DNA from: a virus
Direction: 5' to 3' (one strand)
Virus record (IMG/VR): IMGVR_UViG_3300035688_000356
Span: 1 to 28,175 of that record
Length of the DNA stretch: 28,175 nucleotides
Below, one piece after another: positions 9,827 to 17,669 of this stretch. Every line of letters starts with the position of its first letter. The first letter of the stretch is position 1. A model generated the notes under the pieces. It saw only the letters and a list, made by a program, of their open reading frames with translations, was not told the DNA's origin and did not search any database. The translations under genes and the position numbers were made by a program.

Positions 9827-9900
9827 TTTTCATACTCCGTTAAGCTTTTGCATTTTTCGGAATCCAATTTTATGACTCGCTTTTTATTTTTTCTCTTCAT
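9814..9900 (-). CDS. Possible 28-residue peptide (doubtful)
   Basis: A short frame starts at ATG 9900, right after GAGGGAGAG inside the end of the terminase gene. It ends at TAG 9814, overlapping the next gene's start. The peptide is basic (MKRKNKKRVIKLDSEKC and so on). The ribosome site is strong but close to the start. It may only be spacer that happens to be open. Confidence 0.2.
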   Translation of the reverse strand: MKRKNKKRVIKLDSEKCKSLTEYEKCSK

Positions 9901-12046
9901 TCTCTCCCTCTAAGAATATTATCTTGTCAAATTCTTCGCCCAAAGTTGTAATCACATAACGCAACGCGTCCATACTATTATGAACAAGAACGTCATTAGC
10001 ATAGAATTCGTGACATCCTTCTACAGTAATATCATATACATCTTCTCTTCGTTCCAGTTGTCGTACCGAAAGTACGAATACACCATCGTCTGTAGCTGCT
10101 CTTGCAGTTGTTAGAGCAGAATCGCGCGTTGTCTCTTCTTGTGATGTCATTGAACCTGTTGCCGCAGTTATAACATTTTTTCTTGATAGGCTTTCTTTTT
10201 TTCCAACAATCAATTCCATGCCTTCTGTGCCATCTGATGCCTGCTTCTGATGCGTGCCATTTTTTTGTAAGGATTCTGATGCTGTCGAGATGTTCTCTCT
10301 TTCTGGCGCTGCATACTCCTCCATGCATTGACTTGTGCTTTCTGATTTCAACGCATTCGAGATTTTCAATGCTGTTATTAGCTTTGTTGCCGTCCTTGTG
10401 ATGCAATTCAAACCCAGCAGAAACCTTTCCAAAATTCTTTTCCCACACGTACTGATGAAGGCTATGAAGCCCTTTGAGGATGTACTTTGTCTGCGGCTTA
10501 AAATATTTGCTTTTGTCATATCTTCTGAATATGATTCCGTCAACGGTGATTTCTTCTCTATCCATGCATTCTCATTGATACTGTTCAATTTATATTTGTA
10601 TCGCAGTGAATCCATAGGAATAAAGCCTTTGTCATTTGCCCAAACCCTGTGGTCGGGCGTTCCTATCAAAAACTTTCCATTAGACATTCTTACTTCACAA
10701 AGTTTTGCATTCTGTATTGTAACCCCGCTTTTTAGAACTTTTCTATATCCTTTTCTTGTCAGTACATCTTCTCCTAGCTTTATATCCTTTATTTTCTTAG
10801 ATCCTTTGATTGTCTCAACAAGTGTATCACCAACAAGGCAGTGGTCGAACATTTTTATAGGCAACTCTTTCTGTGGAGTTTCTTCCGTCTTTTCTGGATA
10901 CCTGTAGTTCTCGAATTCCATTATCGTATTGACGCACTTCTGGTCGACATAAAGACGCGGACGCCCATCGCCTCTTACTATTAGCAAATTACTTATCCTC
11001 TTGATGCCCGATATAACAAAAGTTTCCCTAGGCTCCGCGACCTGCTTCTTTACACCCTTGCATTCCATATCTAGATTTTTAAACTCCTGAATTGCGCTGG
11101 GGTTTTCACTGTCCGCTATAAAGAACTCAACATCTTTGAAATTATTCTTTGCATATTCGGCGAGTGCAGAATCCGTCACATGCCTTTCGTAAAATTCGTC
11201 CAAAACGTAGATTCGTCCGTCATAGTCTATTCCTATCTTTAAAATTACTGATGGATTGGTGAACCCGAAATCAACGCCAGCAAGTATAGCTTCGAACTTA
11301 TGTTGTGAAGTATCGATGACGTGAATTGCCCTGTTAAATTCTGGATAGACGCATCCCTCGAACCCTACGAACTGGCCGTATATTTCCTGCCTTGCGAAGA
11401 CTCCGGTATATTCTTCCAATAAAGATTTCTTATAGTCTTCCGGCAGGTAGGGATTGTCAAGCGAGCTCGCCGTTATGTAAAAATAATCCTTGGTCGCCTT
11501 GCTTACGAACTTCTCCCATGTCCATCCGTAGCCCTTAGGTGTAGTGGTCACCCAGCCTCTTCTCGGCCCGGTCTGCCCTCTCAGCCTACCGATCAATATC
11601 TGCCATGCATATCTTAGAAACATCGAGCCCTCGTCCATCCAGAACCAGTCGACGTTTATATTTCTCAAGTGATCTATTGAAGCTGCATCGTCGCCAGGCC
11701 TGAATAGTATTTCCGAGCCGTCTATCAATGTCATGTGCTGTTCGGATCTGTTATACCTTTCTATCAGATCATGCGGGCATATTTCCAGAAATGTCCTTAT
11801 AGTTGAATCGCACAACATACGATATGTGGGCGCCAGTATGACTCCCAAGCTTCCTTTGTAATCCAGAGCTGTTATGATAGATTCCACTGCGCCGCACAAT
11901 GTTTTTCCACTTCCAAGACCGCCGATGAATCCCCTGAATTTTGCCAGGCTATTGTGAAACTTCTCCTGCGGGCTCCACGGGCGGTAGTTCAATATTGTTT
12001 TTATCCGTTCCATTTGTCCCTGGTTCATTGCTTCCGTTTTTATCAC
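9884..12046 (-). CDS. terL: Terminase large subunit interrupted by an intein
   Basis: The precursor has 720 residues from GTG 12046. ATGs at 12028 and 12013 are alternative starts within the overlap with the upstream gene. Walker A (GGLGSGKT) is at about 42-49 and Walker B (VDWFWMDEG) at 132-140, giving the packaging ATPase. The C-terminal RNase H-like nuclease shows GVDFGF with its aspartate at 259 and FFIADSE with its aspartate at 312. The final nuclease motif, DHxxDALRY, is split by an intein: DH ends at residue 402 and SMDALRYV resumes at 691. After protein splicing the mature enzyme would have 432 residues, normal for the family. It pumps DNA into the head through the portal and cuts concatemers. 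Confidence 0.93.
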   Translation of the reverse strand: MIKTEAMNQGQMERIKTILNYRPWSPQEKFHNSLAKFRGFIGGLGSGKTLCGAVESIITALDYKGSLGVILAPTYRMLCDSTIRTFLEICPHDLIERYNRSEQHMTLIDGSEILFRPGDDAASIDHLRNINVDWFWMDEGSMFLRYAWQILIGRLRGQTGPRRGWVTTTPKGYGWTWEKFVSKATKDYFYITASSLDNPYLPEDYKKSLLEEYTGVFARQEIYGQFVGFEGCVYPEFNRAIHVIDTSQHKFEAILAGVDFGFTNPSVILKIGIDYDGRIYVLDEFYERHVTDSALAEYAKNNFKDVEFFIADSENPSAIQEFKNLDMECKGVKKQVAEPRETFVISGIKRISNLLIVRGDGRPRLYVDQKCVNTIMEFENYRYPEKTEETPQKELPIKMFDHCLVGDTLVETIKGSKKIKDIKLGEDVLTRKGYRKVLKSGVTIQNAKLCEVRMSNGKFLIGTPDHRVWANDKGFIPMDSLRYKYKLNSINENAWIEKKSPLTESYSEDMTKANILSRRQSTSSKGFIAFISTCGKRILERFLLGLNCITRTATKLITALKISNALKSESTSQCMEEYAAPERENISTASESLQKNGTHQKQASDGTEGMELIVGKKESLSRKNVITAATGSMTSQEETTRDSALTTARAATDDGVFVLSVRQLERREDVYDITVEGCHEFYANDVLVHNSMDALRYVITTLGEEFDKIIFLEGENEEKK
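10032..10565 (-). CDS. HNH homing endonuclease nested out of frame inside the intein
   Basis: This 177-residue frame is shifted against the terminase/intein frame and lies wholly within the intein. It has a full HNH core: the strand LHQYVWEKNFG, then FELHHKDGNKANNSIENLE (residues about 52-70) and H77 and H81. A treble-clef zinc motif follows (CYNCGNRF near 131-138, CSNNC near 150-154). In inteins the endonuclease is usually fused in frame; here it is a separate overlapping gene. A TATA-like box lies about 28 nt before the ATG, so it could be made from a leaderless transcript. Its 3' end also encodes the start of the intein's C-terminal blocks, so two reading frames are constrained at once. 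Its likely role is spreading the intein. Confidence 0.85.
   Translation of the reverse strand: MDREEITVDGIIFRRYDKSKYFKPQTKYILKGLHSLHQYVWEKNFGKVSAGFELHHKDGNKANNSIENLECVEIRKHKSMHGGVCSARKREHLDSIRILTKKWHASEAGIRWHRRHGIDCWKKRKPIKKKCYNCGNRFNDITRRDNARFCSNNCKSSYRRWCIRTFGTTTGTKRRCI
10588..10597 (-). promoter_or_regulatory. Candidate internal TATA box for the nested HNH gene
   Basis: On the minus strand the sequence reads ACAAATATAAATTG, with its centre about 28 nt upstream of ATG 10565. This nearly matches the TATA part of the conserved promoter (GAAATATAAAT). There is only a weak ribosome site (AATGAGAATGC), so leaderless translation is likely. The box also encodes the intein residues YKYKLN, so chance cannot be excluded. 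Confidence 0.5.
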
Positions 12047-14122: not shown

Positions 14123-14326
14123 TCACTTCGGCCTCTTCTTGTATTGTTTGCCAGGTGTCTTTCTCTTGCGTCCTTTCTCATGGTCTTCCTTGCTCACGAA
14201 CTTCTTGTCTCTTGTTAGCGAGTGCTTACCGTGAGCGAATCTTCTGTGAGTCGCCATCGCTCCCTTGGCTCCCCTTCCGTGTCCGGTGTTAAGCCCGCAG
14301 TCCGGGCATATTACATTTTTATTCAT
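14123..14326 (-). CDS. Small C2H2-like basic zinc-finger protein
   Basis: ATG 14326 is 9 nt after GGAGGT, giving 67 residues; an upstream TTG is too close to the ribosome site. CPDC near residues 7-10 is followed by TGHGRGAKGAMATHRRFAHG, whose paired histidines complete a C2H2-type finger. The C-terminal half is strongly basic (EKGRKRKTPGKQYKKRPK). This is the profile of a small DNA- or RNA-binding protein. Confidence 0.6.
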   Translation of the reverse strand: MNKNVICPDCGLNTGHGRGAKGAMATHRRFAHGKHSLTRDKKFVSKEDHEKGRKRKTPGKQYKKRPK

Positions 14327-14328
14327 TT

Positions 14329-14490
14329 TTACCAAACCTCCTTTTTTACGATATTTTTCTGAACATCAATCACGTGCGAACAGAACGCGCATCGCCTGGT
14401 CTTCTGGGTTACGCTCTCGACCGCCTGCGGCACGCTGTTGCACTTATTGCATCGGACCTTTATTCTGCGCAGCTTCGGAACATAAGGCAT
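14329..14490 (-). CDS. Small zinc-ribbon protein
   Basis: The frame runs from ATG 14490 to TAA 14329, giving 53 residues. GGAGG lies about 10 nt before the start and the next gene's ribosome site overlaps its end. Cysteine pairs CNKC and CAFC are about 20 residues apart, with basic flanks (VPKLRRIKVR). The layout and coupling support a real gene; the role is unknown. Confidence 0.6.
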   Translation of the reverse strand: MPYVPKLRRIKVRCNKCNSVPQAVESVTQKTRRCAFCSHVIDVQKNIVKKEVW

Positions 14491-14492
14491 TC

Positions 14493-15182
14493 TCAATCGG
14501 CCTCCTGCAACATTATGTTCCCGGACTCCACGCGCATTAAGAATTTGCGTCCTATGAATTGCTTGAGTGTGTCTAATGTATGCGTCTTGTCCGTCTTGAG
14601 AATTACGCCTCCCTTGGCGTCCTTGATGGTTACATCAAAGGATCCTTTTTTCATGCCCTTTATCTTCGCCCACCTCTCGCTCCTGTCAATGCCCTGCGGG
14701 GTTTCCTGCGTTTGCGGACCCGGTTGAGGTTCATATCGCACAGAATTTATCTTGACATTCTTGAAATCGATAGCAGGGATATTGGTCAGTTCCGAGATCT
14801 TCGCCGCCTCGACTTTCAGTTCCATGAGCTTCGGTATTATCTTTTCTAGCTTGTCATTTCTTGTTAACTTTACTCCATGCTTCGAGTTCAACTCGACAGA
14901 CATGATGTAGATATCCTTCTCGGAAAGATTCTTGTGGACCTTCGCCTGCACGTGCGTCTCGCCGTTCATCTCGCGGGCGTCTATCCTGTGCCTGCCGTCG
15001 ATAAGAATGTATTTCTTGCCCACGCCGGTGCTGCTCTGAGCCACTTCTATCGGAGGAAACTTAGCACCACGCTTCATCGCTTCCGCGTATTCCTCTACCG
15101 TCATAATGCTATGAGTACTTCTCGGATACATGTCTTCTAAAATCTCGATATCCTTTATGTTTATCAATCTTTCCTCAGTCAT
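14493..15182 (-). CDS. ParB N-terminal-domain protein
   Basis: The product has 229 residues from ATG 15182. Residues 8-110 match the ParB/sulfiredoxin-like fold: INIKDIEILEDMYPRS, a middle helix EYAEAMKRGAKFPPIEV, then ILIDGRHRIDA (residues 59-69), the ParB box that contains the nucleotide-binding arginines. ParB relatives bind centromere-like DNA sites or regulate genes. The C-terminal 70 residues are a separate small domain. The gene starts 8 nt after the pentanucleotide array, and the last pentamer (TAAGG) is correctly placed to act as its ribosome site. Partition, packaging or gene control are all possible roles; the array may be its site or leader. Confidence 0.7.
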   Translation of the reverse strand: MTEERLINIKDIEILEDMYPRSTHSIMTVEEYAEAMKRGAKFPPIEVAQSSTGVGKKYILIDGRHRIDAREMNGETHVQAKVHKNLSEKDIYIMSVELNSKHGVKLTRNDKLEKIIPKLMELKVEAAKISELTNIPAIDFKNVKINSVRYEPQPGPQTQETPQGIDRSERWAKIKGMKKGSFDVTIKDAKGGVILKTDKTHTLDTLKQFIGRKFLMRVESGNIMLQEAD

Positions 15183-15190
15183 GATTAAAA

Positions 15191-15693
15191 CCTTACCTTA
15201 CGTTACCTTGCCTCACCATACATCGCCTTACGCTACCGAACGTTGCACCGCCCAGCCTTGAATCATAAATAATATTCCTCGCCTAACCTCGCATTGCCGG
15301 ACCTCGCCAAGCGTCACATCACCGTGCATCGCCATAAATATAAAATTAAAATCCTCGCCTTACGTTACCGTGCATCGCCACGCCTTGGCGAACCCTGCTT
15401 TACCTGACCTAACCTGACCTTGAACATAAAAATTATTCCTCGCCTCGAATTGCCTTGCCTTACACTGCCGAACCAAACCTAGCTCCGCTTAACCTCGCCG
15501 CGCCGAGCACAGCGTCACTCTGCCATGAGCATAAAAATTATCCATGCCTCGCTATACCGTGCTCCGCCCAGCCAAGCATTGCCCAACTTTACTCTGCCAT
15601 GCACAGCCCCACCCTGAAACATAAATATAATTTCCTCGCCTTGCCTCACCGGACCGGGCCACGCTGCGCCTTGCTCCGCCATGCCAGACTATG
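15191..15693 (-). repeat. Pentanucleotide-phased array: six blocks and five AT-rich separators
   Basis: On the plus strand the DNA falls into consecutive 5-mers of form C-N-N-N-purine (minus: pyrimidine-N-N-N-G, with the fourth base usually also G). Blocks are 15191-15260 (14 units), 15277-15331 (11), 15353-15422 (14), 15438-15527 (18), 15542-15616 (15) and 15634-15693 (12). By hand count, 82 of 84 units keep the first C, and all keep the last purine. The second base is C in about two thirds. Between blocks lie AT-rich separators of 14-21 nt holding CATAAA. On the minus strand a block typically ends CGAGG, then the separator runs to TTTATG. Five-base phasing cannot be coding. The array lies just after the RAMP-like gene stop and just before the ParB-like start, so it may be transcribed with them. 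It is CRISPR-like in outline but not a CRISPR array. Guide-like RNA or protein-binding DNA are the options. Confidence 0.85.
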
Positions 15694-15701
15694 CCTAAGC
15701 A

Positions 15702-16262
15702 TTATCCCCATGATTTTATTTCGAACTTGCCGAACGTCCCTTTCTTCTCAGGCCTGAAATTCAAGAGTCCGACTTTTATTCCGCCGTCTATTATTATCTT
15801 TTTCAAAAGTTTGTCGTCAGCTATGTAGTCCTCGTTGTATACTAATTCGAATCCCAGCTCCCACTTGTCAATCCTCGGCCTGCATCTGATGATTCTTGCC
15901 TTCTGCACGACGACGCTCCTCTTGTCTATGACATAATCCGTTATGAACTTGCTTCCGAGCGTCAATGGTATGTTCTCCGGAGTCACGTCAATCGCTCCTG
16001 CAATCGTAGACTGCACGTTCCTTCCCTTCACCTTGAAGTACGATGCTGACCTCAATATCATTCCGTAAACGCACCTGTTCGGAACGCACAAGACTGTCTT
16101 GCCCTTGATCTCCGTCGTATATGCGCTCTTCCTGGCTTCCTCTATCGGATCATACTTTTTCATGCTCGCCCTTCCCTCGTCTGCCTGCGAGCTCATCATG
16201 CTCTCTACGTTGTGCATCAACAGCGGAGTCAGTCCGCTCAAAACAACTTTTATCTTTTTCAT
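15702..16262 (-). CDS. RAMP / Cas7-like protein
   Basis: The product has 186 residues from ATG 16262. It opens with a first beta strand IKVVLSGLTPLLMHN (4-18) typical of the RAMP fold. A helix-forming segment after PNRCVYGMILRSASYF (61-76) resembles the Cas7 'P-x-S-x-x-G-x-x-R' region. The last third has strands RCRPRIDKWELGFEL (126-140) and a glycine-rich loop ending KKGTFGKFEI (173-182), as in RAMP and Cas7 proteins. Proteins of this general type occur in phage genomes without CRISPR genes. No Cas1, Cas2, Cas3 or Cas10 is nearby. The 5-nt-phased array starts directly after its stop. RNA-binding filament formation is inferred. A single-domain phage recombination-like protein is the alternative. 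Two in-phase pentamers lie just upstream of its start (16271-16280) and supply its ribosome site. Confidence 0.65.
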   Translation of the reverse strand: MKKIKVVLSGLTPLLMHNVESMMSSQADEGRASMKKYDPIEEARKSAYTTEIKGKTVLCVPNRCVYGMILRSASYFKVKGRNVQSTIAGAIDVTPENIPLTLGSKFITDYVIDKRSVVVQKARIIRCRPRIDKWELGFELVYNEDYIADDKLLKKIIIDGGIKVGLLNFRPEKKGTFGKFEIKSWG

Positions 16263-16283
16263 ATTTTTTACCTCGCCTTAATT

Positions 16284-17669
16284 TTATACATTTTCATTAT
16301 ATTCCACTGGTTTCTCGACAACGCGTACGCGGTCGGGCCAGAATTTCAGTTTGCCGCTAGTCTGCCATGTAAGGATCTCCCATTGGATGAGCCTTTCTAT
16401 CTCATGCTCCATTCCATCCGCAGACCAAGCATGCTCCTCTATCTTTTTCTTTATGGATACTTTTGTCCATTGGTCGTTCCTTTTACCTAAAGCAGCTTTC
16501 AAAATGACAACGAGCTTTCCAAGAGCTGTCGATGGCTCAGAGAAAACATTTATAGTCGGTCTCAATTTTTCTAAGATTATTATCGGTTCTGTTTTTCTGA
16601 CTGTTATTTCTTTCATATCTTCAATGCTTTGTGTTTCTCCATCTAACTTGCAACTTGATATTGCTTCTTTGATTAATGGTGATTGAGGCTTTGACTTTTC
16701 TGGTAACTTTGTAGGTAACTTTGTAGGTAACTCTTGGTAACTTTTAGTAACTTTAGGTAACTCCTTCTTCGGCTCGAACTTGTCCTTGAATTTTGTTATG
16801 AACTCGCCGACGTCCATCAGCTTTATGTTCGCGGCCTTCGGACTCAATAGGAACATTCTCGTAGCGTGAAAAGTTTCTCTCTTGCGGAACATTATTTTTT
16901 TGAATATCTTTGGACTCTCCGGATGCCAGACCCATGCCTCGCCGTTCTTCAAAGAATTTAAAGTGTCATACCATTCCTTCAAAGCTTTTTTACCTTCGTC
17001 GGTCTGTTCTTCTACCCATGCTTGAATGGCTTTCTTATCCTGCGGAGCGAGTGTTCTTAGAATTATCAGACAGTCGGATTGCGTCAGCAAATCTTTGTTT
17101 AGAACTGCTGAACGCTGGGTTATCAATGAGCAACCAAGATTTTTATTTCCACCGCGCCTTACAAAGTTATCCATTGCTCCTAAACATTGAATCTGTTCTA
17201 TACCTATGACTCTCTGTGGCGCCCACAAGTCAGCTTCCTCGATAAAGACATGGCGTTCTAATCTGTTTATTTTGTAGAGTTCGTCTAGGAACTCGGCAAC
17301 TATTCTTCTTGCTACTGCTTTAGAAAATCCTGACAAGTCTATGACCGCAGAAATATTTGTCTCAACGATCGCTTTCGCTACCTGTTTTGATTTTAATGGA
17401 TCTAAAGGAATATCCGCATGCTCTCCGCCAAAAACTACAATTGGTAACCCATCTCCCGTACCGTCCTTGCCTACACGCAGTCCCCACCAGATGCCCATGC
17501 CGTCTATGACGACAATCGGTATCTGATTCTTGAGCATCTCTTCTGCCAGATCTGCAGCTGCGTAAGTTTTGCCCGCACCGCGTTTAGCCAGGAAAGAATT
17601 AACCCAGGTCACACTCACTCTAGGCAGGCTTACCTTCTCGCTTATTTTAAAAACTACTTCACTTTTCAC
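16284..17669 (-). CDS. HerA/FtsK-superfamily ATPase
   Basis: The product has 461 residues from GTG 17669, with GGAG 8 nt upstream and a possible overlap with a tiny upstream frame. Walker A is AKRGAGKT (28-35), Walker B is HVFIEEAD (140-147), and LITQR (182-186) is a sensor-like motif. This is the HerA/DUF87-type pattern of hexameric DNA translocases. In viruses, relatives pump or process DNA, and HerA works with nucleases in end resection. The C-terminal 100 residues contain a winged-helix-like region (SIKKKIEEHAWSADGMEHEIERLIQWEIL). A linker at about residues 304-323 is encoded by DNA with six GTAACT repeats (see that entry). Confidence 0.75.
   Translation of the reverse strand: MKSEVVFKISEKVSLPRVSVTWVNSFLAKRGAGKTYAAADLAEEMLKNQIPIVVIDGMGIWWGLRVGKDGTGDGLPIVVFGGEHADIPLDPLKSKQVAKAIVETNISAVIDLSGFSKAVARRIVAEFLDELYKINRLERHVFIEEADLWAPQRVIGIEQIQCLGAMDNFVRRGGNKNLGCSLITQRSAVLNKDLLTQSDCLIILRTLAPQDKKAIQAWVEEQTDEGKKALKEWYDTLNSLKNGEAWVWHPESPKIFKKIMFRKRETFHATRMFLLSPKAANIKLMDVGEFITKFKDKFEPKKELPKVTKSYQELPTKLPTKLPEKSKPQSPLIKEAISSCKLDGETQSIEDMKEITVRKTEPIIILEKLRPTINVFSEPSTALGKLVVILKAALGKRNDQWTKVSIKKKIEEHAWSADGMEHEIERLIQWEILTWQTSGKLKFWPDRVRVVEKPVEYNENV
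16702..16763. repeat. Iteron-like GTAACT direct repeats inside the ATPase gene
   Basis: On the plus strand GTAACT begins at 16703, 16715, 16727, 16737, 16747 and 16757, so spacings are 12, 12, 10, 10 and 10. Most copies are preceded by G. Because 10 is not a multiple of three, the repeat is kept at DNA level although the encoded linker is only partly repetitive. Copies are thus roughly one helical turn apart, as in protein-binding iterons. Confidence 0.7.

Follow-up and report, generated by a model that had tools for sequence, protein, structure and literature searches.

A divergent VIPR-type locus with six predicted guide RNA tracts in a tailed virus

Viral Interference Programmable Repeat (VIPR) systems, made up of a Vipr protein and vrRNAs, were described in an April 2026 preprint from Escherichia phage SUSP1 and a Pseudomonas fulva prophage (PMC13142463; bioRxiv 2026.04.26.720920). 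According to that account, Vipr is a virus-encoded ancestral RAMP of ~20 kDa, and a vrRNA consists of 9-16 YNNGG repeats, with a fixed GGY and a variable NN, followed by a 3′ tail. In recognising double-stranded DNA, VIPR skips one target base between NN pairs, in sense matches the one at the codon wobble position, and it represses competing phages. Seven types, differing in their accessory (vap) genes, are distinguished in the main text of the preprint, with DNA-binding vaps in types II, VI, and VII (PMC13142463). VIPR is a recent class, in which an ancestral RAMP recognises DNA noncontiguously under RNA guidance, for use in virus-virus conflict. The window, i.e. the whole 28,175-nt stretch of viral DNA analysed here, contains a minus-strand locus that is compared with these systems below and whose features are as follows:

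15702-16262, minus strand: vipr gene, encoding a 186-aa RAMP (Cas7-like) protein of the phrog_4652 family, as predicted from profile, structure, and phrog matches
15635-15694, minus strand: vrRNA1 tract, 12 units, NN code AT CT AT GG AA GC GT CC CC GA AA GA
15618-15640, minus strand: AT-rich separator 1, the block ends sharing AAGGCGAGGAATAATTTTTATG
15543-15612, minus strand: vrRNA2 tract, 14 units, NN code GG TG AT AG AA TG AA TT TG GG AC AT GA AT
15439-15523, minus strand: vrRNA3 tract, 17 units, fixed G broken once
15354-15418, minus strand: vrRNA4 tract, 13 units, fixed G broken once
15278-15332, minus strand: vrRNA5 tract, 11 units, NN code GA AC GA GA TT GA CC AA GA TA GA
15192-15256, minus strand: vrRNA6 tract, 13 units, with a 14th unit, GTTTT, merging into the AT-rich end
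about 15528-15545, 15423-15440, 15331-15355, and 15262-15279, minus strand: AT-rich separators 2-5, one after each following block
14493-15182, minus strand: ParB-like gene (phrog_1033, E 4.8e-9), directly downstream of the array, candidate accessory (vap)

The array runs on the minus strand from ~15694 to 15192 with a period of five and comprises ~81 GYNNN units in six blocks of 12, 14, 17, 13, 11, and 13-14 pentamers, with 79/81 units keeping the G and 81/81 the pyrimidine. This agrees with the two breaks in the fixed C/G and none in the fixed purine/pyrimidine of the original prediction, which counted about 84 pentamers in six blocks, and the five AT-rich separators that it listed were also recovered, with TTTATG at their ends. 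By autocorrelation, identity reached 0.453 at lag 5 and 0.42-0.36 at lags 10-40, compared with ~0.18-0.30 at lags other than multiples of five. The longest unbroken GYNNN run is 15 units, against a maximum of 5 in 300 shuffles of that segment, and no other run of more than 6 units was found elsewhere in the window. The base preceding the fixed G is itself a G in 52/81 units (64%), giving a relaxed (G)GY/NN consensus. Pentamers within a block are mostly non-identical (11/12, 13/14, and 15/15 distinct in example blocks); Tandem Repeats Finder called no repeat at the array, where no long direct repeats were seen, and an Rfam search of 14300-16500 gave no match. Sequence comparison of the blocks showed that the AAGGCGAGGAATAATTTTTATG element common to their ends varies in length, and a sixth AT-rich stretch leads into the ATG of the ParB-like ORF. 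By analogy with the published vrRNAs (PMC13142463), separator 1 is probably a 3′ tail. At the close of each block, the last 1-3 units are nearly constant in sequence (AA, GA) and may form part of the tail.

The protein encoded next to the array is, as modelled, a Cas7/Csm3-like RAMP in fold. A profile built from 45 homologues retrieved PDB entry 36pp, ‘SUSP1 Vipr protein’, at E=1.4e-36, with Cas7-11 and Csm5 ranking well below it, and the window protein searched alone matched 36pp only (E=0.0024); a match to phrog_4652 was also obtained (E 3.6e-15). AlphaFold2 with the 45 aligned sequences gave a model with a pLDDT of 94.1 and a pTM of 0.89, for which the best Foldseek matches were Csm3-type and type VII CRISPR RAMP subunits (E 1.2e-6, probability 1.00, TM ~0.5-0.6). 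The window Vipr is divergent, with ~17-38% identity to its aligned relatives.

The association between array and gene was assessed across the viral_contigs collection (2.9 million contigs), which was scanned for 13 GYNNN units followed by a G, without any protein information, homologues being sought by an iterative profile search seeded with the 186-aa protein of the window. At least 120 loci showed the array pattern, and 86 of the 120 listed carried a homologue (88 matches, two of which are the window itself and its copy L001), with the arrays mostly adjoining the vipr gene on the same strand. A control set of 138 loci (1.27 Mb), picked by other patterns, yielded 0 homologues and 0 diverse arrays of at least 12 units. 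Among the listed loci, vipr was found in the fetched flank of 83 of the 103 with a diverse array, compared with 3 of the 17 without a diverse chain. In viral metagenomes, the RAMP gene and its pentamer array travel together, a result reached by a route independent of the preprint, from DNA pattern first to protein second. Single-sequence searches of viral_contigs returned nothing useful, whether started from the window Vipr or from the ParB-like protein, both being too divergent. Arrays were found by the same detector in two annotated-phage relatives, Escherichia phage allfine and Pseudomonas phage LESphi2, and in the former, which is type II-like, the first G is also partly relaxed (12/17, 10/13, and 13/15).

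Given the Cas7/Csm3-like fold of the protein and the match of its family profile to the solved structure of SUSP1 Vipr, the locus is assigned, on homology, to VIPR and not to a new system. Its tracts have a fixed GY, mostly preceded by G, in blocks of 11-17 units beside a small RAMP, on a virus record with a terminase, and the ParB-like neighbour, shared with loci L075 and L115, is a putative vap. The pairing of a guide RNA array with a RAMP (Cas7-like) protein, as originally proposed, is supported by homology, fold, and adjacency, and the expectation that the same array would lie beside homologues elsewhere was borne out. As for the claim of a new RNA-guided system, discontinuous pairing is probably right, and no Cas1, Cas2, or nuclease was recognised in the adjacent genes, but novelty is not upheld, such systems having already been published as VIPR.

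Variation in the scaffold was observed among vipr-linked loci. The fixed trinucleotide is TGY in L009, CGY in L037 and L083, and AGY in L059, L093, and L113, while GYY/NN or GYA/NN registers occur in L035, L079, L109, and L122, with L024 also among the deviating loci; judged from these sequences, the scaffold trinucleotide is clade-dependent. The base before GY is nearly free in the arrays of L023, L046, L074, L086, and L091. Triplet decoding of L086 leaves 26 codons open, and its relaxed-G guide had no target in viral_contigs and otherwise a single meaningless phage match (E=9). The viral contigs L023 and L088 are near-identical, and a single unread position separates their vrRNAs (decoded TACGATG and TACGATA).

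Target scans of the sequence collections covered vrRNA1, vrRNA2, and vrRNA5. Read by the NN/skip-one rule, the vrRNA1 series AT CT AT GG AA GC GT CC CC GA translates as [IM]-L-[IM]-G-[NK]-A-V-P-P-[DE]. Its 8-unit core matched 50 viral stretches, of which 47 encode a GNAVPP-type peptide in frame, a peptide that we take to be motif X of cytosine-C5 DNA methyltransferases; 44 of the stretches lie in an open in-frame ORF of at least 100 codons, and PF00145 was detected in 9 of the 10 ORFs tested. A reordered control using the same eight dinucleotides gave 6 stretches, 0 of them in frame. On this decoding, vrRNA1 appears to read the cytosine-C5 DNA-methyltransferase motif [IM]L[IM]GNAVPP, its predicted kind of target, codon by codon with the skip at the wobble position, which shows that decoding is feasible for a natural guide. 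The matched methyltransferase genes do not fit vrRNA1 at its first unit (AT) or at its last units, and longer vrRNA1 patterns had no match in genome_contigs, no complete vrRNA1 target being found. The motif is widespread among all phages, so the matches point to a kind of gene and not to the real victim. With the vrRNA5 core, 31 matches were obtained, 26 of them in frame, and all 11 units (22/22 read positions) match in frame within a DUF669 gene on viral contig L255; this makes a phage DUF669 gene a putative target, the match being suggestive only, as a chance of ~0.01-0.06 over the guides tried is roughly estimated. Sense matches of both vrRNA1 and vrRNA5 place the skipped base on the codon wobble position. 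For vrRNA2, no target was found, the core giving 51 scattered matches in mixed frames with best, chance-like extensions of 6/12. In sense 1-nt-skip decoding, the vrRNA2 tract (15543-15612) reads G[CW]xxx[CW]xx[CW]GT, which has the CxxxCxxC spacing of radical-SAM enzymes. Comparison of the arrays with ~1.1 Mb of loci gave matches at chance level, whether 0, 1, or 2 bases were skipped or triplets were read, and six-frame codon likelihoods of the window guides weakly favour the sense orientation with the skip at wobble, without being decisive overall.

These matches also bear on how many bases each pentamer reads. The original prediction had three, and an improbable variant of the same RNP would read a contiguous target by a three-base code made of NN and the relaxed position that precedes the following GY; that position varies in the window and in the five loci in which it is nearly free, and could carry information. 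It is nevertheless G in 64% of units here, and the third base is at odds with the Asn and Ile codons conserved in the motif matched by vrRNA1, which has AAG where the methyltransferase genes have AAC/AAT (Asn, 47/47) and ATG where they mostly have ATC/ATT (Ile), agreement at the third base over all vrRNA1 units being 0.31. Treated as codons, the triplets from 553 units of relaxed-G systems include 22 sense stops compared with 20.2 expected, i.e. no depletion, and the SUSP1 binding assays, as given in the preprint, favour a 1-nt skip (PMC13142463). Three read bases are consequently not supported, and two per pentamer fit the sequence data better. An apparent depletion of antisense stops was considered and rejected, as most of it was due to L079, whose fixed trinucleotide is in another register (GYY/NN); cleaner loci showed no sense depletion.

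Among the neighbouring genes, the product of 14493-15182 contains a ParB_N-like domain, and its homologues in L075 and L115, the two loci with which the window Vipr clusters in the tree, lie downstream of vipr and the array on the same strand, which makes the gene a candidate accessory (vap). The array could alternatively serve the ParB-like protein as a DNA site, centromere-like or otherwise, with the RAMP gene as an unrelated neighbour, given that the ParB-like gene starts right at the array end and that a period of five is half a helical turn. This reading is highly improbable: the ParB-like gene was detected at 2 of the loci and at most vipr-linked arrays none was detected, the RAMP gene accompanies 86 of the 120 listed array loci, the free bases vary between units, unlike those of repeated protein-binding sites, and decoded vrRNA1 spells a protein motif. 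That the array is instead a low-complexity or coding repeat produced by simple sequence expansion, with no guide function, is barely credible, for although simple pentamer repeats do occur in the pattern scan (17 of the 120 listed loci have no diverse chain), the block units are nearly all different, Tandem Repeats Finder is silent at the array, and the presence of vipr at 83 of 103 listed diverse arrays against 0 of 138 controls is refuting unless it is a sampling artefact. The HerA-like ATPase upstream (16284-17669) was rejected as an accessory, having no homologue in the other loci; short tandem repeats with a period of ~12-20 lie within its ORF (16694-16762). The large terminase subunit (9884-12046, minus strand) appears to hold an intein (CLVGDTLVETIKG ... 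YANDVLVHNS), overlapped by a possible HNH ORF (10032-10565). An archaeal host is possible, since the terminase match with the lowest E-value (1e-38) among the phage records listed is to a Methanofastidiosa-associated virus and a Hjc-like gene is present.

Taken as a VIPR system in a tailed virus, with the array, Vipr coating, and NN-guided repression as proposed, the locus is very probably read correctly. Array, homology, fold, adjacency, and the decoded motif come from the present analysis, and transcription, RNP assembly, DNA binding, and repression are extrapolated from the systems published for SUSP1 and P. fulva. Transcription of the minus-strand array and cutting of its RNA would probably yield six vrRNAs, each with 11-17 repeats and a short AT-rich 3′ tail. 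Vipr subunits, probably one per pentamer, would coat each vrRNA by gripping GY, usually together with the preceding G, and leave the NN exposed. Together, the NN pairs would recognise a double-stranded DNA target in which one base is passed over between successive pairs, and the target gene would be repressed by the binding. The guides would be aimed at competing elements, vrRNA1 at the C5-methyltransferase motif and vrRNA5 possibly at the phage DUF669 gene, and the downstream ParB-like protein is probably accessory. A guide against a DNA-methyltransferase gene is what would be expected of a weapon against competing viruses. More speculatively, and with considerable doubt, the locus may belong to a separate VIPR branch in viruses possibly infecting archaea, with the ParB-like protein as a new kind of vap, a scaffold of GY and not GGY, and guides that silence the DNA-protecting methyltransferases of rivals. 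With its six guides, the locus is a further, divergent member of VIPR and indicates that the repeat need not keep its first G strictly.

Compared with other known systems, the locus shares with ParB-like partition proteins (phrog_1033) the ParB_N-like domain of its downstream gene, but differs from ParABS partition in that the array units are variable and the ParB-like gene is linked to vipr in two relatives; no ParA family was detected among the ten neighbours scanned. With the RAMPs of class 1 CRISPR-Cas systems (Csm3/Cas7, types III-A and VII), it shares the RAMP fold and, by analogy, a guide held at regular steps; it differs from these systems in having a gapped guide and in being without CRISPR repeats, Cas1/Cas2, or other recognised Cas subunits, no Cas family having been detected in the scanned neighbour genes. 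It differs from the described VIPR systems in that the first G of GGY is relaxed to 64%, the tail is short and AT-rich with no structured tail recognised, Vipr is divergent, and a ParB-like gene lies downstream, none being named in the main text of the preprint. With VIPR it nevertheless shares a virus-borne RAMP of ~20 kDa adjoining noncoding pentamer tracts with fixed (G)GY and variable NN, a probable shared tail after the tracts, and a minimal locus without Cas1/Cas2.
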